Assembly (NCBI RefSeq): GCF_028583425.1
Contig: NC_072801.1
Location: forward strand, 58,853,766 to 58,917,765
Direction: 5' to 3'
DNA from: Eublepharis macularius
Taxonomy: Eukaryota; Chordata; Lepidosauria; Squamata; Eublepharidae
Length of the DNA stretch: 64,000 nt
The notes below the pieces were generated by a model, which was given only the letters and a program-made list of their open reading frames with translations, did not search any database and was not told the origin of the DNA. Both the position numbers and the translations under genes were made by a program. This document shows, in pieces, positions 6,904 to 63,095 of the stretch. How positions within the stretch are numbered: the stretch's first letter is position 1; each line of letters begins with the position of its first letter.

Positions 6904-9900
6904 ATGTCCCACAAAGGATGCCTCAGTGTCACCAAGTACTTCCTCTTCATCTTCAACCTCTTCTTCTTTGTGAGTAATTGGGGATGGGTAGGGAGGAACA
7001 GCAGTCCTGAGGCTGGGTTAGATGGGCTCACGGGTGTCATTCCCAAACAGTCTTGGATGGGTCAGGGAGGGAGGATTCAGGTAGATTTTTAGCCAGCAAC
7101 AGTCTTGCGTTATCACCCCCTTTCTGTTATCTCCTTATAACTCCAGATTCTTGGAAGCCTTCTCTTCAGTTTTGGTTTATGGATCCTCTTCGACCAGAAT
7201 AGTTTTGCCTCTACACTAGGTGAGTTCCCAGGGAATCTGAATCATCCCATTCTAGGCCAAGTGGCACTTAACCTAGGGGTCTCTGCTCCCACTAGCATTC
7301 CTTGTTCTCCCCCATCCACTGCCAGTTCCTTCTTTTCCTTTTGGACTGGTAAAGGTTTCTATAGTAGATTCCCCTGGATAATCCAGAATTATTCCCCAGA
7401 ATCCCCTCTGCAAGGGGGAAAGGACAGGGAAGTATTCCTACAAGTGAATTTTTCTAAATCTTCTCTTCCTTATGAGCCCCCTGCAAAGCAGGCCAAGATT
7501 GCTATGTCTCTTCCTCCTTCCCCAGGGTCATCAATTTTTGCCTTGAAGATCTGGTCCTATATTTTCTCTGGGGTTGGCATCCTCACAATGCTCATGGGAT
7601 TCCTCGGGTGCCTGGGCTCCCTCAAAGAAGTCAAGTGTATGCTGGGATTTGTAAGTATGTGGGGAACCAGGACTCTGAAGTGGGGCCAATGAGGTCCAGT
7701 GGCTCAGAGCAAAGCATTCTGGGAGTTAGGGTTTCCTAGAAACAGGGCCTAGCAGACTAGAGGTCCAGCTAGTCCGACATCTTGTTTCTCGCAATGGCCG
7801 GCCAGGAGCCCCAAGAAGCTGACAAATGAGGCATGAAGGCAGCATCCTTCTGCTACTGCTGCTACCTCCTCCCCCAGCAATTGGTATTCAAAGGTACCCT
7901 GTTTTTTAACATAGAAGTTCCATTAAGCTATCAAGGAATTAAGAGGGAGCTACACATCATGGCAATGCCATAGTGTGGCAGGCACTAACAGAAATACCAA
8001 CCAAAATTCATCACGAACCAGGCCAGTTCATGGTTTGTGAATTGGCAGTTTGTCAGAGATCATTTCTGACAAACCGCCACAAGTTTTAGGCAGGTTCATT
8101 TGGTTCGTTTTCCAGTTCATCACTGCAGACAGTCTGGTGCTGCCCCAGAAGTGACGTTTTCACAAACCAAACGAACCAGTTTGTGACCGGGCAAGTTTGT
8201 GAAAGTTTGTGATTCGTGAAACATTACGAACCACGAACTGCACGGTTCATTATTTTCCTGGTTCGTGCCCACCTCTACTCTCAAGGCATTGGCTTTCCTG
8301 TTCATGGGATTTATTTTTATTTTTCCTTTGGCTCATTTATAACATGGCGGCACTGATGAGTGTAGAACTGAATTTACCTTTTTTGACAGGGTTCTTCTAC
8401 TGTAGGTAGAAAAATGAACAGTTTACGCACTGGGTCCTTAATAAATTGGAATTCTAGTCAATGTCACTTGGAAATCAGAAATGCGTTCTCTAAAAAACAA
8501 AAGTAAATAATGTTTATTTATTTACTTCATTTAAACGCCACCTTTCTCCCCAATAAGGACCCAAAGTGGCTTTCATCATTATCCTCTCCTGTTTTTTCCT
8601 CACAACAACCTTGTGCAGTAGGTTAGGCTGAGAGGGTGTGACTGGCCCCTGGTCTCCCAACAAGCTTCCATGGAAGAGTGAGAATTCAAACCTGGGTGTC
8701 CCAGCTCCTAGTCCAGCACTCTAGGCCAATATACCATGCTGGTGGCATGAGAAAATACCTCCCAGTTACCCTGTTGTACTGAATATATTTATGAAGCAAT
8801 CCATGTGATCAAAAAATCATGTAATACAAAGTTCCTGGGTGTTGTCTCATTTCAGCCTGGTGGTGGGAGTCTGCATATTTTAATGCTTTTCTCTTGGGAG
8901 TGGGGGGGAAATGATCCCTGCATGTAGAAAACTGGCATATCAAATAGTATAGGTTAGATCTCTTTCCCTGATGTACTAGTTTTCTAAGGGGAGAGAATTT
9001 ATGGAGTAGGGCACACTCAGATTTGACTTTCCATCCAGCCACTCACTTCCTGCAATGGAACAGTCCCAGGAGCTCTTCACATGATTTATTTGCATGTGCT
9101 TAGAACATACAGAGGTTTGTTATAGCAATTTCTGTTTAATATGTATATTTTGAAACATATATTGCAACATCTTAAATCATGGCTTTTAGCTTTTAAGCGT
9201 TGCTTCTTGTGACACTTAAAAAAAAAAGGAATTAATATTAATTAAAAGAAAAATGAGCACACACACCCTTCCCCCACAAAATGCTTGAAGTTCACTGACC
9301 CCTGTCTTTCTCTGTCAACAGTACTTTGCCTTCTTACTGCTTCTCTTTGTTGCCCAAATCTCCATTGGAATTGTGGTATACACGCAGCGCAACACGGTGA
9401 GTCATACCATGACGAAACTCGCAATGTGTGCACTTGCATCTTGTGGGAAGGACACCCTTACTTATTTATTTAGTACATTTTTAGGCTGCTGTTTTCCCAT
9501 ATAGCTCAGGGCAAGCATACATTGTTCTCCCCTCTGCCATTTGATTCTCACAACCAGGGATTTTTTTCTGGGAAAAGAGGTGGTGGAACTCAGGACCGCA
9601 CAATGACGTCACTTTGGGTCAGCTGGAACAAGGAGGGAGTTTTTAAAAGTTTAAATCGCCCTCGGTGAAAAGGGTCACATGGCCGGTGGCCCCGCCCCCT
9701 GATCTTCAGACAGAGGGGAGTTTAGATTGCCCTCCATGCCAGCAGTGCGGAGGGCAATCTAAACTCCCTTCTGTCTGGAGATCAGGGGGCGGGGCCACCT
9801 GCCATGTAACCATTTTCAAGAGGTGCCGGAACTCCTTTCCACCATGTTCCAGCTGAAAAAAAGCCCTGCTCACAACAACTCTGAGAGGCTTAGTTACACT

Positions 9901-25300: not shown

Positions 25301-28300
25301 GAGTGTTGGATGCAGGGCCGGTACGCCCATTGAGACCAGGTAGGCGGTGGCCTCAGGGTGCGGGATGCCGGAGGAGGCATGGGGGGGGGCAGGAGTGCGC
25401 ACCACAGAGCTGCAGCCTCCTAGCCCTCCCACCCTGCGCCGCCGCCACCGCCAGCACATGCCCCCGGCCGGGCTCAGCAGCCACAGGCAGGCATCTGCAG
25501 CGGTGCAGGGCAACCGAGCGGGAGAGCTCGGAGGCCACCCGCGCGCTGTCCCAGCCGCCTGCCATAGCAATCGGGCTGGTGGCACGCGTGTGCCCGCGAT
25601 GACGTCATCACGCAGGCTGATGTGTGTGTGGGGGGGGGCGCCCAGCCTGCCAGCTGACCGTGAGCGCTGAAAACCCTGGCGCCACTGCTGGTTGGATGTA
25701 ATGCTTGGTCCAACAAGGCCATTCTTAAGTTCTGATGCTGAAATTAACATTTATTATTTTTTTAGATTGACTAAAGTCATTCCTAAAAAGATATCATTTC
25801 TAAAAAGGATTTTTATACCCTGGATGCCATGTTTCCAAAACAGTACACATTTTAAAATTTACATCTTTGGTTTTATGTAGAACTCTTGGGTTTTTATGCA
25901 TAACTAGAACGGCTTTCAGCTAGGCAGTACAAAACCTAATAAATAGGTCTTCTTGTTAAAAACTGTGCTACATTACATTATACAGTGGGACGAAACGAAG
26001 TGTGGAGAAAACATCCACAGATCAGAAGGGATTTGAACTCTTGTCCAAGAGCAATATCCTTTTTATTTATCCAAAAGTGATAAATCCAACTGGGATATCT
26101 GGATACATGTTGTCCAGGGCTGGCACTGTTGCATGGTCTGGACAAAGCCATGGTCAGCCGAGAGGTGATGGGTGGCCCCCTCCCTGGATAACCGCCACCC
26201 AAGAATCCCGGGAGGGTTCATCCACCCCCTGAAGCCAACACAGGGGGACATACCGCCCGGGAAGGCAGCAGGGATGCTGGCATGGCAGGCAGCAGCTGGG
26301 GGAGCTTCCCTGACAGCCCTCAGAACTGAGCCACCACTACCTCAAGAAGCAATGGTGGCCCACTGTAATCCTATGTACAGTTGTTCCAGTCTAACTCTGT
26401 TGATTTCAGTGGGCTCTGAATGAAGTAACACTGCATAGGATTGCAGTGTTGGTTTCTTTTTTAGGTGCCTCCCACCACTCAATAAATACTGGGGCAGGTC
26501 AAGCCCTTCCATGTAAGCTGGAACATCTTGAAATCTGTTCCATGTTTACCTGCTCAGTTCCTCCCCAATTAATCCACTGAACCTAGTAGGCTGGGTGGGT
26601 GATACTGGGAAGTGTCCGTGCTGCATTACCAGCTTCTTGGCTAGGCCTCCTTTTTAGTTAAGGATTCAGGAGAGCAGAGGGAAAGAGATCTCACCCAGAA
26701 CTTGACCAAGAAGAAGGCATGGGGAGGCCCTTGGTCGTACAAGTCTCGCAGCCCACCTCCTCGCTCAGGGAACTTGTCATAGATCTGCCGTACATCCACC
26801 ATCTCCAGGGGTGGGTCAGTGGTAGGGGCTGGGTCGATGTGCACAAAACGGTGCTGCTGCTTACATTGTGGAGAGCAAAGGGACACTGTCAGAGACAGAA
26901 CTAGCAGATACCCACATAGCTGCTTAGCTAATCCATCCATTGCAATAGCGAAGCTTTCTCTAGACACACTATGCAAGTTGGCAATGACTGCCTGGCTGTT
27001 AGACCTCTCAAAAATATTTAGTATTTAGACCACACTTGTTGCACTTAAAGGGCATTTTGTGTATGTTGTCAACATTTCATCCAACAATGCTGCAAGGTAG
27101 ATCCGTGTAATTCTCCCATATTATTATTAGGCAGGGGTCCCCAACCTTCTCCCAATGTTTTCACAACATAAAATGGCCCCCATGGGAGTGTCATTTGCCC
27201 CAGGAGAGGCTCCATGTGTACTGATAGGGTACATATAGATTTCTCCTGTGAGGTAAATAATAGTGCCCTTGGACAGTTTCAAGTCAGGAAAACTGAGGGG
27301 GGGGTATAAGCCCCCTCTCCACGCACACTGAGATGCTGATCTGAATTAGGCCTTTGCATGCCCAAGAACCAAGGTCACACTGGGAAACTCCCAATGCATG
27401 TCTGTTGGAAAGCCCTCATCGCAGATCGAGACTTTGAAACGTATTTAGGCCCTGAATGTTAGCAGTTGATGTAAAAGTCACTTGGCAAGTTTATCACCAG
27501 GCTGGACCGGAAGACATGCTGACCTCTTGCTCTTTTCATACCACACCAGCTCCTCAAAGCAAAACTAAAGATGGCTGTCAGCTTTCTGGCATCTTAACCT
27601 TCAATTTTTCATTCTCTGCATCTGGTTCGTCATATTTCTCCCTCCATCCCCTTTATCACAGTAGATACTGCCCTTCATCCAAGAAATTTTGGGTAATGTG
27701 GACGGGGGTACCAATTCTTTTTCCAACAGCCTTGTGGTGTGGGCCCACTAGAGGTGGTGATTGGCCCAAGACCATCCAGTCAACTTCTCTCTGGCCAAGC
27801 CAGATAATCACTACACCAAGATGACTCCCAATTTTCCATAAAAGTTTCCAGAAAAGTTTACCCTTACACACTGGGTGGGGGACTAGGCATGTGTCTCTCA
27901 CCGGATCCTGTTCACCCTGCCGCTCCACAAAGGCTGTGAATTCCACCAATCGAAGTGTCTCTGTACCAATGTGGCTTCCCTGCCAAGAACTTGTACTGGG
28001 GAGACGGGAGAGTCTCCCTGTGGGTGTGTGATAACCTGTCATGCACAAGAAAAGCTTGCTGAAGGCTGTCTGGCACACTCCCTCTTACTGGTGGGGAGGG
28101 GAAGAGAGCTAGGAGAAGAAAATGAAAATGGTCTCTTACCTGGCGCAGCAGGGGGCGCTGTGATCGGTGGAATGGTGTACGGCGCCTGGAGAATGGGCTT
28201 CACACTGTGGAGTGAGGACGAAACTGTATCAACATACAGCTGAACCCTGGTGAACATATCATTCAACCGTGGGGGCTGCGGCTCAAGGGCAGATTGGCCT

Positions 28301-49773: not shown

Positions 49774-52700
49774 ATGCTGCCGCTGGTATGGGGGTTATGG
49801 TGCCTGACTCCTCTGATGCACGGAGAAACTGCATCTGCTGCCTTCCTGCCCTCCAGCATGGAGAGAATCTTCCAGGATTTCAACAGCCTGATGGAGAGAA
49901 ACCGGGTAAGGGGGTTGCATGGGACAAAGAAGGGGTTCAGGTGGGCAGATCAAATCTGCCCCCAAACAGAAGGAATGTTCCAGTGCTGGAGGGGGGGGGC
50001 ATGTTCTAGGGACTGCATTAAGAATCCTCTCAAATAAAGGAGGATTCTTGCAGTAAGGGGTATATCTGGCAAATGAGTGTCACAGCTAACATCTCTTTCT
50101 GCACTTCTCCCCGCCCCCACCCCCCCATATCAGCATATTCAAATTTCTCTCTCCTCCCCACTCCTCAACCTGTTTTACCGCACAGCACACACATCTGTAT
50201 TTTGGTGCAGATGCAGTTCTTATCATTGCTCTGGTAATAGATATGAGCATATTCTAGTGCTGTTTTAGGAGTTCAAAACAGAACTAGTTCTGTATCTTTC
50301 AGGAGAGAAGGTTTGATTGTCAGCTGTTCACTCATCTCTCATCTTCAAGAATCCTTGTTTTGGATGCAAAAGTAGGCTTTTCGAGGCTGTAAAATTCTAG
50401 ATTTGAGGGCACCCTTCCCCCCGATGTCCATAATTAGATTGGAGTGATGAAATTGCATAAACTTGGCAAATAATTTCTTGCAAGTCTTTGGGGCGTGGCA
50501 TTTGTTTTTTCAAATTTTAACTTGCACCTGTAGCCTTTATTCGATGGGGCATGACACACTCCAAAAATTACACCGACTGTACAAGTTGTATAACCAACCT
50601 TGCTTCTCACAAGACATCCTGGGAAGGGTTATTGCTTGGCAGTGCTGAGAATTCGTTCAGTTGTTCTAAGGCCAGATATTCTATGACAAGCTCTAAGATC
50701 AACTGAAGGTGCTCTCAGAAATTCACTATCATGTTCGGACTGCAGAATTACATGTAGAGGCATCCTCAGTGGCTGCTCCACAAATGTGTATTATTCTTAA
50801 TCTTTTTTTAAAAAAAATTAGACCTGCAAACTTTAGTGGATGAATCAACTAAAAAGTTTTTGATCATGTAAAAGGGGGATACTGATTAATCTGTCAACAC
50901 ATTTAAAGAGTTAACTATTTGAAATAGAAGCACTATGAAAGAGCAGATGACTTAGAATGGGGATTCCATTGGCACTCTTTTGCAGGAGGGAATGCTTTTT
51001 CTAAAGTGGTACCTGCTGTCACATGTACATGCACTATCTAAAAAAGAAAGTATCCTTTTCCCCTTAAAAACTATTGTTTTATTAATATGCAAATGTAATT
51101 ACTCAGAATGTGTATGATTAATCCTGTAACTCCCTTTCCCATTTATGAAATATCCATCTCCTGGAGACTTACAAGAATCCAAAGGTACATCTTTCATTGT
51201 CCCATGTTCTTTTTAATAGATGGCATAAAACACAACAAAATATACAGGTCAGTTACACAAACTCATGGTTTATTGGTAAAAGAACTACAAATTCTGAGCA
51301 TGCAATACTGGGAGGAAAGGTGCATAGACACAGAAATACCTAAAAAATTATTCTTGGCCAGAAGGAAAGAAAAGGTAATATGGAATGTGCCATGTGGCTG
51401 ATGTTGATGCCATTTTGATGCCCAGCCATGTGATGTTCTAGAAACACCATTCCAGGAGGTCCCTGCAGGAAACAGAAGACTGGAATAGATGATCTCTGAT
51501 GTCTGGTCTGATTGGTCAGAGCTTTTTTTAGGAGGAGGATGTTTCCATCTTTGTTGCTATTTGTTGCTAATAGGGAGCATTGGGGAAAGAGCAGTTTGAT
51601 GGTACGGTGGACATCAGCAAGCTACCTTCAAACTACCACAATGAGGAGGAAAAGCAGCGGAAAATGGGAAACGCCACGGTGTATAGCCACCATGTAATCA
51701 ACAAGGTGAGTGAGCAATTGAAAAAACTGGAGTGCATTAGTGCAGTAGGTGTAAAGCTGCCTTGTACTGAATCCGAGCATTGGCCGCCCAGAATCATCCA
51801 CTCTGGTTGGCAATGGCTCCCCAGGATCTCAGGCAGACAAATGTCCTACCATCTGCTTCTTGTGATCTTCTTGAGATCTTTCATTAGCAAGCCAAGTGGT
51901 GGGCTAGGTCAGAGAGGGAGGCAGACCCATGCCAGGGCCACACATGCCCCAGGAAGACAGTCTCTTCTTTATAGGCAGGCCTCGAACATGATGTTGGCTG
52001 CATGTGACTTCAGGCATGCCTGTGTTCACATGGCATCAGAGGCACACAGCTGACCTGGACACTCAGCAGCCCCAGAGCGCCAGATGAAAAGCATCTGTGG
52101 GCTGTCAGTGGCCCATGGGCTGTAGTTTGGATGTCCCTGCTTTAATGCTTCAATTGAATAAGGGAAAAACCATTTTGTGGGTGAATAAAATCTAGATTCT
52201 TCTTCCTGAATAATGCACTTTGAAGAGTAACATACACTATACGACAGACACAGATGGGGCTGAAATGTGTTTTGACAGTTTTGCCTGCATCGAGGCACCT
52301 TTTAAGCCTTGTTTGAATTTGGGACTGTTTAGTTTGTAGTTCCTGCTTCACAAACTGATTGTATTTGGAATGTTACTATTGTCTTGATAGTTTTACTTAA
52401 TGACTGATAGATGTTAATGTTTATATTATTAAACATATTATATTATTATATATATTATATTAAAAAGTATACAGTACACACATTTAATCTAATCCGTGAT
52501 TAAATCAACTTTTCTACTGTCTAGGGGGAGTTATATATATTAAAAGCCCTATATAGCTTGGGGCCTGCATACTTTAAGGACTGCCTTATGAACCTACCCG
52601 TCCATTCTTGTCATCTTTGGAGGCCCTACTTCGGGTGCCCCCCCCCTTCTGAAGCTAGACAGGCGGCAACCCGAGGAAGGGCCTTCTGGGTTGTGGCATC

Positions 52701-55700
52701 GAAACTTTGGAACTTCCTCCCCAGGAAGATTTGTCTATCTCCCTCAATCATTGTCTTCTATCCGTGGGTAAAAACGTTTTGTTTTGTTTGGCACACCAAT
52801 GACTGTTACTGGCCCTCTTCCCTGGGTTTTGGAGTTGTGTGTTTATATGATTTTATAAATTATTTTGAATGCTGTTTTAATGTTCAAATATTTTAATCTT
52901 TGGTATTCACCACCTTGGGGATCCTATTTGGGTGGAAAGGCGCCATGGAAATGGTTTAAATAAATACATATGTATATGTTAGAGCCAGTTTGGTGTAGTG
53001 GTTAAGAGCGCAGGACTCTAATCTGGAGAGCTGGGTTTGATTCCCCACTCCTCCACTTGAAGCCAGCTGGGTGACCTTGGGTGAGTCACAGCTTCTAGAA
53101 GCTCCCTCAGCCCCACCCACCTCACAGAGTGTTTGTTGTGGGCAGGGGTCATTTGGTAGAAAAAGAGCAGGAGGAACTCATTAGCATATGTCACACCCCT
53201 TGCCATCACTGGAAGTGTGTCATTAGCATAACTGATTTGCTTATGCCACACCCCTTGACATCGCCTATCATGGCTGTTTTTGGACCCAATCCTGGCCATT
53301 CACGGCCAAAATTGGGCCCAAAATGGCAAAAAGGGGCTGAAAATGGCCAAAAAGGGGACCAAAATGGTCAGGATCAGGCCACTGCTGAGTGGGAGACTGA
53401 TCCACCACCCATCAGAGGCCCGATCCAGGCTGTTTCGGCCCCAATCCAGGCTGAAACGGGCCCAAAATGGCCGAGAGTCAGGTGGGTGGGGCTACCTGAC
53501 ATTTGACCTCTTTGGGGAACTGCCGGAACTGCGTTCCTGCGCGTTCCCCCTTGAAATGAGCCCTGGTTATAGGGATAATAATGATATACTTTGTAAACCG
53601 CTCTGAGTGGGCATTAAGTTGTCCTGAAGGGCGGTATATAAATCAAATGTTGTTGTTGTTATCTATTTCCACACCATCATTCATGACAATAATCCATCTG
53701 CCTGTCCTTCTTACTCTTCAACCAACCCCTCGGCAACACATTCTTTAAGCATTATGGAAATGCCCAGGCAGCCGTTTGATAGACATATAAAGTCTCATCT
53801 CCTTGATTGAGGCTCCACACTGCGCCCTCAAATCCATACCTCACATGGGTGCCTTGAACCGCTTAGGAAGAAACTGCCATTGGACTCTAGAGAGGTACAG
53901 CCATAGTGTAAACCCATAAAGAGAACTCACTTTTCGGGAATCCAAATGAAATGTTCCTGTAGTGATACAGAGCCTTAGCCATGAGGGAGAGCTTTCCCCA
54001 ACAGCCACACTGCTGCTCAAATGTTTTAATTGGAACTGAAAGCCTGAATGTTAATTCTTAAGCCCATTCTTCTGTCAATGCCTGCAGGTGACTAATAACC
54101 ATACAGGTGAGATGATCTTTTCAGAGAAAGTGGTGACTTCTATTGAAGAGGAAGACACCCACCCAGAGAAGAAGGAGGTTAGTACACACCAACCAATTTT
54201 AGGATGTTTGTGACCTGATTTGGCTGTGTGAGAGGAAGAAGGGAGAGTCTGTAGACTGGCTGGTAGAATTGTTTTGCACACATTTTCAAGGGCCAAGCTG
54301 GAATGCTAACCCATGAAGCCCTCCTTCCCTGCCATTTTAGGAGGCTTGTGGGGCCAGTGTTCTCAGATGCATCTCCCAAACCTCCCGGGAACAGTGCAAG
54401 GACATGTTCACCTCATTTAGGAATAGAACATGAAGCGGAGCCTTAAGCAAGAACATCAGCCCAGATGAGCTGCAGGCTGGACAAGGTGTTCCTAATGTGT
54501 CATGAGACATATCCCAGGATAAACAGCTGCTACAGGCACATGGTGCCTGTGGGCGCCATGGTGCCTGCCAATACCTTTCCTGGCACCTGCCAAGTATTTT
54601 TAGGAAGTGGGCAGGGCCTTGTGGGGCTTTTGCCAAGCAAAGCTTCTGATTTACCATTGGAGATTTGATTGGCTGTGAAGATTTTTTAAAAAGATTTTAA
54701 ACATGTTTAAAAGGATCTTCACTTTATGACTGAAGGCAGCCATTTTGTGGCAGGCTCCCCTTCTGTGGCAGCCATTTTATGCCTGCACCGACCACATTGT
54801 GTAGTATTTCCAAAACTGCCTGCAGGAAAGCTTGGAGACTCCTGTACTAGACTGTTGGTTCTTCCCAGAGGATCCAGGGGGATTCTGTGTTTCTCTTGCA
54901 CTCCACCCAATAGATATTGTTCTCCTCTTCCCCCACAGGAGATTCTTGACAACATAAGAAAATTTATCCTGAAGCGTGTGATCCAAAATCCTATTTCCCG
55001 CAGTGCCCAGGCAGAAGTCCCCCAGAGAAACTTTAAAGCAGTATAAAGGCAACACTATTCCATTGTCATCCTCCCCAGCATCATGGAGGCAGTGGTATAA
55101 CTTGATGTGGATAAGTGGGGCAGCTGCCTCTGGCCCACCTGACAGGGTCACAGGTGCTGATCTCTTGAAGAAGCCCTGGAAGTACCATGGCACAGCCAGC
55201 TCATCCAAATGTCAATGTGGGTACACTGTCAGTTACATTGGACATGGCCATCATCATGGGACCAACCCACCAAAAGGAAGCAGTTAATGAAACTTGCTTA
55301 CCAGATAGTTACTCTCCAGATAGTCAGAGGCAGTAAACAGAGCCATTTAGCTATTGTGGCTGGCAGCTTTTGTTAGACCTGTCCTCTATGTCTAATCCTG
55401 TTAAAAACAATAAAAAAGAACTGAAGAGCTTCATTGTCTCCCCTCATCTCAAACCCCATGACTCCTCTTTCCTTCTCCCAGATTTACTCATCCTTTATTC
55501 TAACTATGAGCAGAACCACAAGTGACAAAAGGCACAGATTGGACACTTGTCAGCTTCCCTCAAGTTTTGAAGGGAAATGTAGGCATCCTGGTCTTGCAGC
55601 TTGGCTCTCTGACTGCTGTCCAATGGACTTTTCAACTGTCACTTGTCCAACATTCCGCCAAGCTGCCTACATTTCCCATCAAAACTTGAGGGAAGCTGAC

Positions 55701-56217
55701 AAGTGTCCAATCTGTGCCTTTTGTCACTTGTGGTTCTGCTCTATGACACACATCCCCAATCCCAGAAAACCAGGAATCCAGATCTTAGACCATTCTCTTC
55801 TCCCAGCTCTGAGCATAAGTTTTTCTGTGATTCACACAGGTCACTGAGGTAATATTATTTTTTTGGTCCATGTCTTTCCAGGTTCCTAAGCCAGTGACTA
55901 GTCAGAAAGAAACAGATCTTGAGGCAGACAGGGAGATTGATGGAGTCAGGTTCTTCACAGAGAGTCCTCCCCAGCCTAGGCCTAGGCTGACCTTTCTGAT
56001 CTTCCGCTTCCCCCACCGCCACAAGAGCAAGCAGATGTCTGAAGGCAGCTCGGTCAAAGAAGAGCCCGTCAGCGATAGGAAACACAGGCTGCTGGCCATT
56101 CGGAACGGCCTTTTAACAGCCCCTCGCCCCATCAAAAAGAAAGTTCTCCCTGTCCCCCCTCAGCCCAAGTTCAGCCCACAAAAGCGTCACTTCTTTATCT
56201 TCCTGCAGAAAATATAA
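49774..56217 (+). CDS. DKKL1: DKKL1 (soggy), short secreted form, four coding exons
   Basis: Secreted relative of Dickkopf-3; in mammals DKKL1 is expressed mainly in spermatocytes and found on the acrosome. Exons: 49774-49905, 51574-51705, 54088-54177, 55882-56217; every junction is phase 0; 229 residues (human 242). Residues 1-20 form a signal peptide (MLPLVWGLWCLTPLMHG). The soggy region includes SKLPSNYHNEEEK, GNATVYSHHVINK and TNNHTGEMIFSEKVVTSI, shared with DKKL1 and DKK3. The last exon matches the mammalian DKKL1 C-terminus: VPK start, LTFLIFRFPHR, SDRKHRLLAIRNGL and FSPQKRHFFIFL. AATAAA follows at 56356. The acceptor at 49739 just before the ATG suggests an upstream leader exon. The divergent neighbour is TEAD2, as in human. 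Exon 3 can also splice in phase to cysteine-rich exons downstream. Confidence 0.88.
49906..51573 (+). other. Intron 1 of the DKKL1/DKK3-like gene
   Basis: No recognised repeat or coding exon apart from A+T-rich stretches around 50.75-51.1 kb. Confidence 0.5.
52520..52975 (+). mobile_element. L2-like LINE 3' end
   Basis: Coding remnant KALYSLGPAYFKDCL, then FGCPPPSEAR, RGRAFWVVASKLWNFLP. Tail CACCTTGGGGATCCTATTTG and GTTTAAATAAATA. Confidence 0.65.
52981..53660 (+). mobile_element. tRNA-derived SINE split by a hAT MITE
   Basis: Halves 52981-53142 and 53566-53660 join at the MITE target site. A box TGGTGTAGTGGTTAAG, B box GGTTTGATTCCCC, tail TTGTAAACCGCTCTGAGTGG. Confidence 0.8.
53143..53565 (+). 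mobile_element. hAT-type MITE, family 1, nested in a SINE
   Basis: Begins CAGGGGTCATTTGG and ends GAAATGAGCCCTG. Flanks GTTGTGGG (53135-53142) and GTTATAGG (53566-53573) agree at 6 of 8. Its octamer is changed to ATTTGCTT. Confidence 0.75.
54535..54847 (-). mobile_element. hAT-type MITE, family 3, reverse
   Basis: The reverse complement reads CAGGAGTCTCCAAGC, then GGAAATACTACACAATGTGG, AAAATGGCTGCCACA and GCAAAAGCCCCACAAGG, as in the copies at 13179 and 61717. Confidence 0.5.
54939..55046 (+). CDS. Candidate extra terminal exon of the DKKL1/DKK3-like locus
   Basis: A strong acceptor (ttctcctcttcccccacag) is followed by 35 open codons and a stop, in the phase-0 register of exon 3. The peptide begins EILDNIRKFILKRVIQ and is basic and possibly helical. 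AATAAA follows at 55409-55414. No family resemblance is recognised and no internal donor is good, so if used it would be a terminal exon. It may be a cryptic site. Confidence 0.35.
   Translation, partial: EILDNIRKFILKRVIQNPISRSAQAEVPQRNFKAV
55409..55414 (+). terminator. AATAAA after the candidate exon at 54939
   Basis: Polyadenylation hexamer 363 bases after the stop of the 54939 exon and upstream of the DKKL1 last exon. Confidence 0.3.
55510..55739. mobile_element. Fold-back MITE with 75-bp inverted repeats
   Basis: Arms 55510-55584 and 55665-55739 are inverted copies with one difference noticed, beginning GCAGAACCACAAGTGACAAA. The spacer is 80 bp. Flanked by CTATGA on both sides (55504-55509, 55741-55746). 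It lies 143 bp upstream of the DKKL1 last exon. Confidence 0.8.
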
Positions 56218-56355
56218 GCCCCAGGGGCGGGGCGGGGGAGGGAAAGGAGGCTTGACATGTTTGGGCCAGGGAGAATTCTTCTGGTTTCCTAGATATTTCC
56301 TGTTATGTTACAGGGCGATTCTACAAAAAGGGGACATAGTTTCTCTCCATCTTGA

Positions 56356-56361
56356 AATAAA
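56356..56361 (+). terminator. DKKL1 polyadenylation signal
   Basis: AATAAA 139 bases after the DKKL1-type stop codon. It would end the short form before the cysteine-rich exons. Confidence 0.65.
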
Positions 56362-56464
56362 AGTCATTCCTTTGGAAAACAAAACTTTGAAGAGGAAGGA
56401 TGTGCAATATTTTTTTTTAGTGGATTGAAGCAATAAGGATACTACTTGTTTTCAGTATATTACA

Positions 56465-56670
56465 GGCAGGTCATGGCTCATTGGTAGCCTCCTTGCTTTG
56501 CATGTAGAAGGGCCCAGGTTCACCTTCTGGTATCTCTAGTTGAAAGAGAGTAGGTAGTAGGTGAAAGACCCCAAGACTCTGGAGAACTGCTGCCAGTCAG
56601 AACAGACAATACTGGCCTAGATAAACAAATTGTCTGACTCACTTGAGGGTGGTTTCCTGCCTGCATATGA
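56465..56670 (+). mobile_element. tRNA-derived SINE (TTTGCATGTAGAAGG type)
   Basis: CATGGCTCATTGGTAGCC, GCTTTGCATGTAGAAGG, B-box-like CAGGTTCACCTTC, CTGCTGCCAGTCAGAACAGA and TTGTCTGACTCACT. Confidence 0.65.
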
Positions 56671-58930
56671 AACACCCATAGACCCATTCTACACGTGCAG
56701 AAGAATGAGATGGGAATGAAGCGGATGACTTCTGAGGTGACAGCATGGAGTTGTACCCCTTCAGAGTGCCAATGCAGCGCATGTGTAAATGCTCCCCTTT
56801 TTTAAAAAATCCTTATATTGATTGAGAGTTATGTAATGAGTGGGCCACTGCAGGAGAAAGTTCTGGAATGGAAGAGTCAAATTGCAGTTGGTTCTAGTTG
56901 AGCTGACACTCATCTCTGATGCCTCCAGGTGAAATGGCTGCTGAATTTTGCAGTTTTGTTTTTACAATTTACAGAGCTGGACAGAGCAATGCAGGACCCT
57001 GATGTGCCCTTCTTTTTTCTTTGCTGAAAATCTAACCCCTCCCCCAGACACCTCTTCTTGGTTTCTGAGATTTCACCTGTGTTTAACAGCCTTTTGAGAC
57101 TAAGGATGATTTTAATGTTAGAAACTTACTTTTTAAGCAGCTGAACTGATACTAGGCCCACTTTTCCTGCATTTCCAACTTACCTACATGGAAATGTTTT
57201 CCTTTTGGAAAAGCAAAATGCTGCTCTAAGTTGTTACCATATTCAGGAGGAGGCGACACAACAGTCTGTGCTCACCTTTTGAATATATTTTTGGTAGGGG
57301 TAGCCTATGTTGAAAAACTGCTGTGAAGACCTGCAGCGGAGGGCACTATGGGTCTCCTATTGGGATCTGGATGTAAACAAAGGTGTGCTAGAAGTAATTG
57401 AGGACTGTCAACATCAGGAAGAGAAGAAGCCAGAAACATCCCCAAAGAGGGTGAACGCTCCTTGGTTCAATGTGTGTTTCTAGAGGCAGCTTGGCAGAGC
57501 AATGGGAACAAGCCCAAACAATAAGGTTTCACGCTGTGCCAGCTTGAAGCAAAGAACTTATGTGTGTAGGTGGGACACAGGCAGTCTTATGCTGCATACA
57601 CATGGCAACAATTTTTCATGTCCCTTCTGTTGCTGCTGTGAATGCAGAGACATTTGCAGTGGCAACCAAGTATTCACACAATAGCTTTCATTGCACTTTT
57701 CTTGCCCCTCCAACCACCAACAAAAGGCCTTTTTCTGTTTTTTTTAATGAATCAGTAACTGACATATCACCATAGCATTAAGGTACTGATATCTGTCATG
57801 TACTGATTTTAAGCTATCATGATCTGTCCATTACCTTAAAAAAAAAAAACAGAAATAGTCCCTGGGGGTGGTGAGGAGTAAGAATGGAGGCCACAAAGGA
57901 CTGGGATGAGAAAACTTGTACTGATGTGGCTGGGATCAACAAAAATGTACTCTTCCCCATCCTCACAACATGGAATCCACACAGCATGGAAAGGTGCTTT
58001 GACTGTGTCTTTTTCAGAAGGTCGTACCAAACCAGGTTTGGAAAAGACCAGCGCAGTGTGTGTGTGGGGGGGGGGGAGGGGGGAATAGACAATTGGGAGA
58101 CAATGTTGTGTGGATGCTCCAACCTCCTTCACTCTGATTTCAACATAAAACTGAAGCAAAACTGGAATAGCAGCTGAGCACCAACATCATGATAGGCAAT
58201 AGCATTCACTGAAAAAGACGTAAGCCTGTGACGAGGTAAGAATTGTTTTCAGTTGTATGGCTATTGTACGGGTCATGGCTTAAAAGTTCCCTGGGGCAAG
58301 GCTCAAGACCATGTACCTCTAAATTCATACTGGATGCTAAGATGACCATTTAGGTATGGAGGGCTGCTGAGCTCATCGCAGGTACTATAAGTGAATCTTA
58401 AATCATTTGAACTGAATCAGCAAAAACAGTTGATGATATGCATGAGAAGATGAAGCAACATCTCTTTTGCTTTCTGCTTACAATATTCTGGTTACCATTT
58501 GTGTGCTGAGTGCCCTGTTCACATGGGTGGGGCTTGGGATGAATGACTCAGAGATACTTATTTCAGTTCCTCATTTTGCAATTGCTGTATTAATTCAATC
58601 CACTGAAGTGAAATCTGATTCTGATTCATGTTTGTTTGCTTCCTAAATTTGCTACTAAGAAAATGTTAGGACACACTGGTTGTACTTAGAACGGTTATGC
58701 GCAAAATAGGCATTGCAATTTCCCAGGATTCTTTTCTTTTTGATTGGTAATTTAGGGCCAAAGTAGACGTTACGGTGGCCATGGGTTTGACCTGTGGCTG
58801 TTACTGCCATTTTAGGGAAGAATTTGACCATTGAAAATATGCTGTGAGGACTTGATCCTAATTGGGCCCATGGTGAGGGGGACCCAGGTGATCTTGTCCC
58901 CACCCCATCCACACCTTTTCAGGTACCAAA
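56671..58930. other. Spacer between the DKKL1 last exon and the LINE
   Basis: No coding exon or repeat family recognised apart from homopolymer runs near 57837 (A) and 58066 (G). Confidence 0.45.
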
Positions 58931-59281
58931 ACTGCCCATGTTCAAAGACTCCAACAGAATTTAACAGATGATACTCTAGAGACATCTAAAGATTTGCCTG
59001 TTTGGGATCCAGTTCACCAAACAAATTTAAATTGTCTATTGACTGTTTAAAGGCTGGTAAGGTGCCTGGGTCAGATTTGGTTCTGGCCTGTCTTTTGAGT
59101 TGACATTTGTTGGTGGTCACATGTAATTGCTGCCTTGTTTACAACAGTTGATAGAACAGGTACCTAACCAGAGGCAGCGGGCCGTGTATAAGAAAGGGGC
59201 AAGAAACAATCCTGCTAATTATCCTATTTGTCTTTTATCTGTCCTGGGTAAATTATATGCTTCCCACCTACACCTTAAACT

Positions 59282-59465
59282 GGGCCGATTCCAGACAGCC
59301 CCCCGCCTCGCGAAACGTCGCGTAGAAAACGCGAAATATCGCGTTTTCTCGTGCGAGTTTTGCGCGACATCGTGCAAAACTCGCGTGAGAAAATGCGATA
59401 TTTCGCGTTTTCTGCACGACGACGCGCGACGTTTCGTGAGGCGGGGGGCCGTCTGGAATTGGCCC
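59282..59465. mobile_element. CpG-rich near-perfect palindromic MITE
   Basis: Ends GGGCCGATTCCAGAC and GTCTGGAATTGGCCC. The arms CGTCGCGTAGAAAACGCGAA and CGCGTTTTCTGCACGACG pair almost to the centre. Inserted in the LINE. No clear target duplication. Confidence 0.75.
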
Positions 59466-59584
59466 TGGATAACTGGATGTGGGCAACTCAGACTTTGGGT
59501 CTGGAGTAGATTGGTTTCAAGAAAGGGGCTTTGCATTGCCCAATGCATTAGTCTGGTCTCATTTGGATGAGAAATATTTGTCAT

Positions 59585-59831
59585 CAGGGCTTTTTTTCAG
59601 CGGGAACATGGTGGAACGGAGTTCCGGAACCTCTTGAAAATGGTCACATGGCTGCTGGCCCCGCCCCCTGATCTCCAGACAGAGGGGAGTTTAGATTGCG
59701 CTCTGTGCCAAGAGCAATCTCAACTCCCCTCTGTCTGGAGATCAGGGGGCGGGGCCACCAGCCATGTAACCATTTTCTCCAAGGGCAACCCACTGAGTTC
59801 CACCACCTCTTTTCGCAGAAAAAAAGCCCTG
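59585..59831 (-). mobile_element. hAT-type MITE, family 2
   Basis: Ends CAGGGCTTTTTTTCAGC and GCAGAAAAAAAGCCCTG. Perfect 8-bp duplication TTTGTCAT at 59577-59584 and 59832-59839. Palindromic core with GATCTCCAGACAGAGGGGAG. Confidence 0.8.
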
Positions 59832-60696
59832 TTTGTCATCAAAAAAAGGGAAAGCTTACATTCATCAATTTACAGGTAGTGTTTAATTCAGTCTCCATAA
59901 TATGCTTACATCAGAAACTCAAAGCCACAACTATATCCCTGAGGCTGCTGTTTCTAATTAAGCAACTTTATAAGTCTTCCTTTTTAAAGTGTGATATAAT
60001 TCCTAAGGCTCTCTAAGTCAGTTACTGTTACCAAGGGGGTATGGCAAGGCTGTGTTTTTGCTCCCTATCTTTTCAAACTTGCTCTATCTGACCTTCCTCA
60101 GAAGTCAGCTTTTACTGACCTTCACGCCCTTTTATATGGCAAGGTCATTGTCTTAATTTGACTTTCTCTAGTTAGTATGTGTTGAACTTTAAAAATGTTT
60201 GCTGACTATTATAAATTTGAATCCTTATATGTCATAGCTATATTGTCTTATCTTAAACTAGAGCGGTCTGTGGCATTTGAACTAAGAACCTAAGGGAAAG
60301 AAGGAAATGGGTGGCTTGGCTTTGTTTTCCTTTCCAGCTGATGATAACATCCTCAGTTAGGAGCAGACTTATGCATAAGATTCCCACACAGGCTGTACAG
60401 GAAGCTTTCTGATTGCAGTCGCCAAAGATATAGTGCGTCTCAACCAATCAGATCATAGGAGGATCATGGCCAATCCTAAGCTCAGGTACGTGGACTCATT
60501 AGCATTAGCAGGTGCTCCATACCTCCTCCCAGGCATCCTGCTCAGCAAAGCACACAACTATGGACCCAATCCAATTTCCTCATTTAAGCCTTGAGGTAAG
60601 GGAGTGGATCTGCTTGAGTTCCAACTATTCCCCAGTAATGAGGGAACTGACCTGCTAGTACAACAGCCTTTACAGCATTCACTTCCTCCCCAACAG

Positions 60697-62567
60697 GTGT
60701 GTGTGAGTGACAGCAATTGTCAAAAGGACCAATTCTGCTTCCGGTCACTGCTTGCATCCCAGTGTCAGCAGTGTAAAGCCAAAGATATGGTGAGTGCAAA
60801 GGGTGAGTGCTGCATCTGTCATAGTGAAGTGTTTTTACCCCTGAAGATAGTGCTTAAAATGAGAGTTCCTCTGACTCCTGCTTGCTGTCCACTCTGAGAG
60901 TCCTTTGCAAATCATATGTGCCTCTGTTTTTTCCAACACAGCTAATTATTTGTATCTGTGGTGGGTTTTCTTACCCTGGTTCTGTGCTTATGTCCTGAAA
61001 TTAAAGTATGGAAACTGCAGTGTCAGAACTGGCCTTCAGAGTTAATATACTGGGAAATGTGATGATGCACAGTCTTTACATCTGTTGCATGAAGGAACAG
61101 GTCAGTGGGATGGGGGTACATGTTGCCAGCACATTACTTACTTTATCTCCTAGACTTGCCAAAATGATGGGGAATGCTGCTTGGGTTCCCTGTGTGTATG
61201 GGGCAAGTGTGCAGAAGGTGTAAGCCAAGGAGAGAGTGGGACGAGATGTGACCCAAACCAAGACAAGTGTGCTCAGGGATTGTGCTGCACCACCAGCAAA
61301 GGTGAGATACTTTTCAGCCTTTGCATGCTTTCCTCTCCTCTCCATTGAAACTCATAAAAGGCCAGAGATGTGATACAATGGGACACACTGGATATTTTAT
61401 TACTCCGGAAGTTACTTGCTAGCGCTGCTACACATTGCATTCTAAGGGCACATCATCTGCAAAAACACAGTACCCATGGCTATAACTGAGTTTTATTGAA
61501 TTCTGTTTGACCCTCTCATCCCCCATCTAGTCTTTCTTGTGCTGCTATATGCCAGTTAGCAGTATATGTGTGCAGACTGAGGAGCACGAGAGCTCAAGAG
61601 AGGGAAAATCAGTTTACTTGTAGGTATGATGGAGAAACTTAATTGCTTTGCTGGATCTGGCCAAAGTCCAGCATTCTAGCAGCACCTGGAAACAAGGAGA
61701 CAATATTTATTTACAGCAAGGGTCTCCAACCTTTTTTTGAGCCTGTGGGCACTTTTGGAATTCTTGCACAGATTGGTAGGTGCAGCTACAAAATGGCTAC
61801 TGCAAGAGACAGAACCAACCACAAAATTGTTGCCACACAGAAAATGTCAGGGAGTGAGGTTATGCATAACACTAATAGTAACTCTTCAGCATTTCTGGCA
61901 GAGGATCTATTTAACAGTACGCCTTTTAAAATCATATTGTTTTAAAATATTTTCTTGCATACACTTGTGGTGAAGATCCTTGTGCTATGGTGGCAGCTGC
62001 TGCTGAGGCAACTTTTAAAACGTCTGCACAGGCAATCCCATCTCCATTGGCCAATCAGAAGCCTTGGTGGGCAAAAGCCCCACCTAGCCCTTCCGACTTT
62101 CTAAAGCACTCGAAGAGCATCAGGAAAGGTATCAGCATGCACCATGGTGCCCTTAGGGACCCCTGATTTAGACAATGGCACTTCCTAGCAACAGCTTCGA
62201 GAACTTTTGGCTGTACTTCCTTGAATTCTGCTGATAATTAAGCCAATATTTCTTCACTAACTGTCCCGTAACACAAACCATAGATAGCTCTGAGAACATC
62301 TGTTATGGAAGACCCATTAATTTCAGCAGGCTAACACAGACGATGTTCTGAGCTTATTTTGATTCCTGCATTTTGTACATGTAACATTTCCCAGTTTCTG
62401 TCTTATCTCCTTGCAGCTTTCTCATTTCCAGTCTGTGCTCCTTATCCAAAAGAAGGCGAAGCATGCCAGACACCAAGTACTACTTTCTTTAGACTGATGG
62501 TTTGGGACAACCAGGCAGCATTTGCCAAATGTCCATGTGCCCAAGGGTTGGAGTGCAGAAGTAAAAG
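60697..62567 (+). CDS. DKK3-type cysteine-rich exons of the same locus (3' incomplete)
   Basis: Three exons with good splice sites: 60697-60789 (phase 0 in), 61154-61301 and 62417-62567. They encode the Dickkopf N-terminal cysteine domain with all ten cysteines (CVSDSNC, FC, SQCQQC, TCQNDGECC, LCVWGKC) and most of the second, colipase-like domain (RCDPNQDKC, GLCC, FPVCAPYPKEGEAC, KCPCAQGLEC). Spacing and the pieces LCVWGKC and PVCxPxPxEGExC are of DKK3 type. They join in phase to DKKL1 exon 3 (ending 54177), as DKK3 is built. The tenth cysteine of domain two is missing; a donor (AAAAG|GTAATG) ends exon 62567, so the last exon probably lies beyond the window. Without it the frame stops at once (TAA). 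Alternatives: a separate tandem gene, or a decaying remnant, though no break is seen. Confidence 0.8.
61717..62165 (+). mobile_element. hAT-type MITE, family 3
   Basis: Ends CAAGGGTCTCCAACC and GGGACCCCTG. Flanks ATTTACAG and ATTTAGAC agree at 6 of 8. Lies in the intron between the last two cysteine-rich exons. Confidence 0.7.
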
Positions 62568-62635: not shown

Positions 62636-63095
62636 AGAGTTTCCAGGTCCCCTTACCGTCCGGGCAGGAGACAAAAGACCTGGCACTCTGCTTTTTAATT
62701 GTCTTTGGTGCTGCACGATGACATCACTTCCTGGAAGTGATGTTGTTGTGCAGGCCTCGTGCTGCCTCTGAAAGTGCTCCTGCATTACACAGTGGGACAA
62801 TTTTGGCCCACTATGGAGCGTGGGAGCGCTGCCAGGGCAGCGTGATAGGCCCTGGAGTGTTCCTGCACTCAGCAACAGGACAATTTTGGCCTGTTTAGGG
62901 GCAAATAGGGCCCATTTGGGGACCAAATGGGCCTACTGTAGCGTGCAGGAGTGCACCATGCTACCTGGGAGCATGCCCTGGGAGGCATCCTCCCCTGCCT
63001 TTTCCCCTGTTGGGCAGGTAAGTAGTGGTGAGGGGTAGAGGGTGGGAGCAGGGGATCTGGATCCCCCACCCCCAGCGGGGGACTGGCAACCCTAA
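62636..63095 (+). mobile_element. MITE, GGTTGCCAGGTCCCC family, perfect target duplication
   Basis: Flanked by ACCTAGTT at 62628-62635 and 63096-63103. Palindrome at 62711-62753 (GATGACATCACTTCC / GGAAGTGATGTTG). The right end is GGGGGACTGGCAACCCTAA. Confidence 0.75.

Follow-up and report, generated by a model that had tools for sequence, protein, structure and literature searches.

Does the locus on contig C12 of Eublepharis macularius that carries both DKKL1-type and DKK3-type 3' ends belong to one gene with two products, or to two adjoining genes? The window, a stretch of 64,000 nucleotides (C12:58853766-58917765), holds three 5' exons, a terminal exon of DKKL1 type and, further downstream, exons for cysteine-rich domains (CRD1 and CRD2) of the DKK3 kind. 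We conclude, with a probability of roughly 85%, that these parts form a single alternative-last-exon gene, orthologous to mammalian DKKL1. Under this model, exons 1 to 3 would encode a signal peptide and a soggy region; splicing in of the terminal exon, together with use of its own polyadenylation signal, would yield a short soggy protein with a DKKL1 C-terminus, and skipping of that exon would join exon 3 to the cysteine exons and the last exon to give a DKK3-like secreted protein of 357 residues. We infer from the sequence that both junctions are used in E. macularius.

The initial annotation held that three phase-0 exons can be joined in frame to either of two 3' ends, one a DKKL1 C-terminus with its own AATAAA and the other a ten-cysteine domain followed by most of a second; each of these statements is borne out (Table 1). 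Exons 1 to 3 are all bounded by GT and AG. The junction 54177-55882 gives a 229-residue protein with the DKKL1-type C-terminus, and the junction 54177-60697 keeps an open frame across c1, c2 and c3, for 248 residues in the window and onward; the last exon is preceded by an AG acceptor and begins in phase 2, matching the requirement of c3, and the coding stretch of the long form spans 14.8 kb in total with the last exon in phase. Scored with an approximate matrix, the six donors of the gene equal or exceed 97.9% of the 3411 plus-strand GT dinucleotides, and its six acceptors (those of exons 2 and 3, of the exon at 55882 and of c1 to c3) equal or exceed 91.7% of the 4668 plus-strand AG dinucleotides. 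The stop and the polyadenylation signal of the terminal exon sit inside an intron of the longer form, as in genes with alternative last exons. A candidate last exon at 63076 (reading NLVLKPTIEGS) was discarded in favor of the annotated one.

Table 1. Features of the locus, by position in the window; the genes taken as neighbors are listed last.
Feature	Position	Strand	Description
Exon 1 (shared)	49774..49905	+	ATG, signal-peptide region and first part of soggy region; 132 bases, phase 0; P0001 residues 1-44
Exon 2 (shared)	51574..51705	+	Soggy core; 132 bases, phase 0
Exon 3 (shared)	54088..54177	+	End of soggy region; 90 bases, phase 0; donor GAG/GTTAGT (slash marks the splice point) common to both 3' ends
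Alternative terminal exon (short form)	55882..56217	+	DKKL1-type C-terminus; stop 56215-56217
AATAAA polyadenylation signal (short form)	56356..56361	+	Read directly in the sequence
Cysteine exon c1 (long form)	60697..60789	+	Start of CRD1
Cysteine exon c2 (long form)	61154..61301	+	End of CRD1, start of CRD2
Cysteine exon c3 (long form)	62417..62567	+	Most of CRD2, including DKK3-type insert
Last long-form exon	64255-64582, counted on from the window (C12:58918020-58918347)	+	Starts 255 bases past the window end
Candidate third terminal exon	54939..55046	+	35 residues, phase-0 frame with stop; AATAAA 55409-55414; unproven
CD37-like tetraspanin stretch	7141..7692	+	Pfam Tetraspanin match (E=2.3e-5) that does not reach the curated cut-off
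TEAD2, YAP-binding-domain stretch	26641..27024	-	Pfam YBD E=5.4e-13

The long construct is 100% identical, across all 248 residues, to the database protein P0001 ("dickkopf-like protein 1", E. macularius, 357 residues), and the database model therefore already uses the 54177-60697 junction. The initial annotation knew of no description of such a dual-output gene; we found none in the literature searched, but databases already list the long form as DKKL1. Pfam Dickkopf_N matches the long form (E=1e-13) and gives no match to the short form. Within the window are encoded the ten cysteines of CRD1 and nine of the ten of CRD2; the tenth, residue 255 of P0001, lies in the last exon beyond the window, so that all 20 are present and the long form combines a soggy N-terminal region with two ten-cysteine domains, as DKK3 does. 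Its CRD2 reads FRLMVWD at the place of the human DKK3 insert, quoted as LDLITWE in PMC10606412. DKK1 has a 5-residue gap there. In the same alignment H204, W206, K211, K222, K226 and H229 of DKK1 face A, S, A, T, M and D, and R236 faces K; the long form hence lacks six of seven residues that we take, with this numbering, to be the LRP6 contacts of DKK1. The tail (P0001 residues 337-357, with MGQYFGPGFY at its end) shows strong conservation between salamanders and geckos and is absent from sturgeon DKK3b. AlphaFold models were of low overall confidence (mean predicted local distance difference test scores 59.2 and 53.9, with block means of 82-89 over long-form residues 121-210) and were not used further.

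The terminal exon of the short form matches a Gekko kuhli protein (P0014; 79% over 112 residues, E 6.6e-56) and a marsupial DKKL1 (P0071; 31%, E 1e-5). A profile of this C-terminal exon, built from 20 sauropsid C-termini with that of the window included, scores 39.2 bits against the marsupial DKKL1 and 19.4 bits against P0068, an unnamed newt-like short form; among 2000 shuffles of each (1898 and 1964 scored) none came as high, the best reaching 9.6 bits for the marsupial and 9.4 bits for P0068. The marsupial soggy exon is nearer to the window (59%, E 3.8e-8) than to gecko DKK3 (43%, E 0.16), and the best soggy tree places marsupial DKKL1 inside the group of this gene.

That the long form is not simply DKK3 follows from the gecko genome itself, where the true DKK3, located with sturgeon dkk3b, is a separate gene on contig C2. 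A genome search with P0001 returned nine matches, seven at this locus and two weaker ones on C2, all genome match counts being lower bounds; P0001 residues 250-357 had no match inside the window and a match just past its end. Besides DKK3, one copy each was found of soggy exons 1-2, of the terminal exon and of the cysteine exons. The exons of gecko DKK3 equal those of this gene in phases and ends, and DKK3 has its own soggy exons upstream of c1; exon 2, for instance, ends at the same residues (INK) and in the same phase as its counterpart on C2. No DKKL1-type exon was found in 45 kb of the gecko DKK3 locus (C2:119195001-119239999), where the best score was 4.2 bits vs 165.7 in the window; a scan of part of that stretch gave 4.1 bits at best. 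The CRD tree (17 rows) sets gecko DKK3 and sturgeon DKK3b on one side with 100/100 support and 15 rows of this gene, from squamates, alligator, salamanders and frogs, on the other. A topology that unites gecko DKK3 and this gecko gene is rejected (p 0.001), and the gene is thus not the DKK3 orthologue. In an earlier CRD tree the position of Alligator was not resolved. The duplication that separated DKK3 from this gene would predate the split of ray-finned and lobe-finned fishes, provided that the 17-row tree is rooted between its two sides.

Gene order agrees with DKKL1 identity. The locus lies in the order CD37, TEAD2, this gene, KASH5, these three neighbor names being assigned from gene order, which places it where DKKL1 is expected, between TEAD2 on the opposite strand and KASH5/CCDC155. 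The KASH5 assignment draws on two plus-strand KASH_CCD matches (C12:58932212 and 58933011, 0.8 kb apart), the first of which exceeds the cut-off and lies about 13.9 kb past the last long-form exon; four further KASH_CCD matches fall on other contigs, the best-scoring on C9. The title of a cited reference puts mouse Soggy upstream of and opposite to TEAD-2, and PMC10967326 puts DKKL1 upstream of CCDC155 in alligator and soft-shell turtle.

Three protein searches returned 71 relatives, whose parts were assigned by profiles built from some of those same proteins. Soggy region plus terminal exon make up 29 of the 71, and 14 combine soggy region, CRD and tail; a further 25 have CRD and tail without a soggy region (5 squamate, 20 frog), two (P0027 and P0028) carry all parts, and one is the sturgeon DKK3. 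Long forms come from Eublepharis, Euleptes, Rhineura, Hemicordylus, Sceloporus, Zootoca, Podarcis, Pogona (without c1) and Tiliqua among squamates, and from Alligator, Platysternon (without most of CRD2), Ambystoma, Lissotriton and Ascaphus. Short forms come from squamates (including five snake species, Varanus, Elgaria and two Anolis), turtles, Crocodylus, one marsupial and the newt-like P0068. Lineage absences rest on word-limited searches of predicted proteins, and in these the terminal exon appeared in none of 21 frog entries, 20 of which lacked the soggy region. The partial long form of Platysternon megacephalum (P0015) carries the public-database name transaldolase.

Where both forms are annotated, they part at the expected place. 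Isoforms X2 and X4 of Rhineura agree at 121 of 121 common residues and diverge where exon 3 ends; a long and a short entry of Podarcis muralis, both labelled X4, agree at 184 of 188 residues. The split falls at the matching place also between turtle entries (Platysternon long vs Mauremys short, 111/117) and between newt-like entries (Lissotriton long vs P0068, 117/125). P0068 derives from two contigs, the longest of 1006 bases, too short for four salamander exons with their introns, and we therefore take it for spliced RNA. For a tree of the shared part, the alignment was cut four residues before the junction and included 11 of 14 long and 14 of 29 short proteins, leaving out Rhineura and Podarcis (both forms), Ascaphus, Anolis, partial or near-copy rows and the marsupial. 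On this tree long and short forms are intermixed (8 changes vs a shuffled mean of 8.4), and long-short pairs group together in geckos, phrynosomatids, agamids, crocodilians and newts (starred support) and in turtles (82/70). A single clade of long rows is rejected (p 7e-6), and with it one old pair of genes.

Several points weigh against the one-gene reading. The shared-part tree leaves recent duplicates within each lineage possible, annotated isoforms may be predictions, and E. macularius is represented among the 71 entries by the long form alone. P0068, the sole newt short-form entry, matches the C-terminal exon in its first half only (RPRLAFLFMHLP). Grouping of marsupial DKKL1 with DKK3 gives p 0.165 and 0.214 on two soggy trees, and its amniote grouping p 0.467, so that soggy trees alone cannot place it. 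No cysteine part was found in the snake (6), anguimorph (3), Anolis (3) or mammal (1) entries that the word-limited protein searches returned. Some models, finally, supply the cysteine exons with other N-termini, namely P0010 and P0011 of Paroedura picta and P0013 of Phrynosoma, which stands as a model separate from P0017; and a turtle paper lists a DKK3L of 201 residues as a separate gene (PMC10967326). These deviant models and DKK3L may be annotation errors or may reflect real separate promoters, and if the latter holds, the dual-output reading fails in those species. The two Paroedura proteins are very similar cysteine modules with unrelated N-termini, encoded on contigs of equal length, and may be tandem copies or models with first exons of their own.

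The same deviant models speak for two adjoining genes, in which DKKL1 would end at 56217, the cysteine exons would be transcribed separately, starting from another first exon, and long isoforms would be annotation joins; the soggy region missing from 20 of 21 frog and 5 squamate proteins points the same way. We consider this improbable. Soggy region, CRD and tail occur together in 14 of the 71 relatives, from two geckos, a skink, lacertids, iguanians, an amphisbaenian, a cordylid, alligator, a turtle, two salamanders and one frog; the exons agree in phase and boundaries with those of gecko DKK3, in which soggy exons likewise precede c1; and the Paroedura N-termini are unmatched in the window upstream of 60661. 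Far less credible is a DKKL1 transcript that reads through into, or is chimerically fused with, a DKK3-like tandem copy whose 5' exons were lost once a local duplication had produced it. P0027 (Podarcis lilfordi) and P0028 (Pogona vitticeps) do run from the terminal exon into c2, but they overrun the usual stop, lack c1 and are probably annotation artefacts or model hybrids; the locus yielded a single set of soggy exons, and salamander entries also include both long and short forms. Least plausible of all, the cysteine exons could be a decaying remnant without a product in this species, for which a deletion might speak, since four residues present in Euleptes and Paroedura are missing ahead of C237; the deletion removes no cysteine, however, and open frames, 20 cysteines, intact splice sites and the conserved tail all tell against decay.

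Taking the one-gene reading forward, the cysteine-exon architecture, common to DKK3, would be the older state. The initial annotation saw in the locus a reptilian intermediate with two outputs; annotated pairs in other species favor the two outputs, but the salamander evidence makes a tetrapod-ancestor state probable instead, and given that sauropsids, a marsupial and a newt-like entry all have the terminal exon, the dual state was most likely present in that ancestor. We lean towards a history in which the ancestral dual gene was resolved in opposite ways: mammals and, independently and by database absence, snakes plus anguimorphs and Anolis would have lost the cysteine exons and kept the short output, frogs would have retained the cysteine output after loss of the terminal exon and, except in Ascaphus, of the soggy part, and many lizards, crocodilians, turtles and salamanders would still make both. 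DKKL1 would then be the freed isoform of an older gene. Its origin in mammals by loss of the cysteine exons, as first suggested, fits the distribution, gene order and exon homology, with one mammalian entry, the marsupial, among the relatives.

As to function, mammalian DKKL1 is described as a sperm acrosome protein (PMC3442974), male germ-cell expression is reported for mouse and turtle (PMC3442974, PMC10967326), and expression in turtle is given as highest in testis (PMC10967326). By analogy, a role like that of mammalian DKKL1 is expected of the short form, and tissue choice would favor it in male germ cells, as in those two species. DKK3 is said not to bind LRP6 because LRP6-contact residues are missing (PMC6078440), and an in-silico claim that it can bind LRP5/6 is cited in PMC10606412. 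With its 20 cysteines, DKK3-type insert and missing contact residues, the long form most likely works like DKK3, as a secreted protein and not as an LRP5/6 antagonist.

These results supply a concrete account of the origin of DKKL1, which is a sperm protein of mammals and is grouped with the Dickkopf family despite lacking the defining domains. They also point to a further DKK3-like gene of tetrapods other than mammals, which the DKKL1 name has concealed. Lineages that apparently keep opposite outputs would constitute a natural experiment on the role of each form.

Further elements lie in the introns. The candidate third terminal exon (Table 1) has an acceptor whose score ranks second on the plus strand, and one copy was found in the genome; 41 of the 159 acceptors scoring at least 3.9 open frames as long, which weakens the candidate, and no relative with this exon turned up, although no protein search aimed at it was made. 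A foldback at 55508-55741 (two 84-base arms, 96% complementary) ends 140 bases before the short-form terminal exon, and two more (59308-59429 and 59636-59777) lie in the intron preceding the cysteine exons. Dispersed repeat pieces in inverted orientation (54542-54826 and 61742-62161, 75-83% complementary) flank the terminal exon and c1-c2, and their pairing could influence splicing.

Among the closest known systems is mammalian DKKL1 (Soggy-1, dickkopf-like acrosomal protein 1), with which the gene shares gene order, soggy exons and a homologous C-terminal exon; to our knowledge mammalian DKKL1, represented here by one marsupial entry, lacks cysteine-rich domains, whereas the gecko locus has both these and the conserved tail. 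The gecko gene resembles DKK3 in its soggy region, its two ten-cysteine domains, the CRD2 insert and exon phases and ends, but DKK3 lies on another contig, forms its own clade, has a different tail and shows no DKKL1-type exon in the 45 kb scanned. Unlike the LRP5/6-binding Dickkopf proteins (DKK1/2/4), the long form lacks six of the seven basic and aromatic contact residues of CRD2 listed above. The DKK3L of Pelodiscus sinensis has cysteine domains and is DKK3-related, but is described in PMC10967326 as a separate gene without a soggy region. In layout the locus corresponds to genes with alternative last exons, such as calcitonin/CGRP, in which shared 5' exons lead either into a terminal exon that carries a separate polyadenylation signal or past it to distal exons; what differs here is that lineages appear to have lost opposite outputs.

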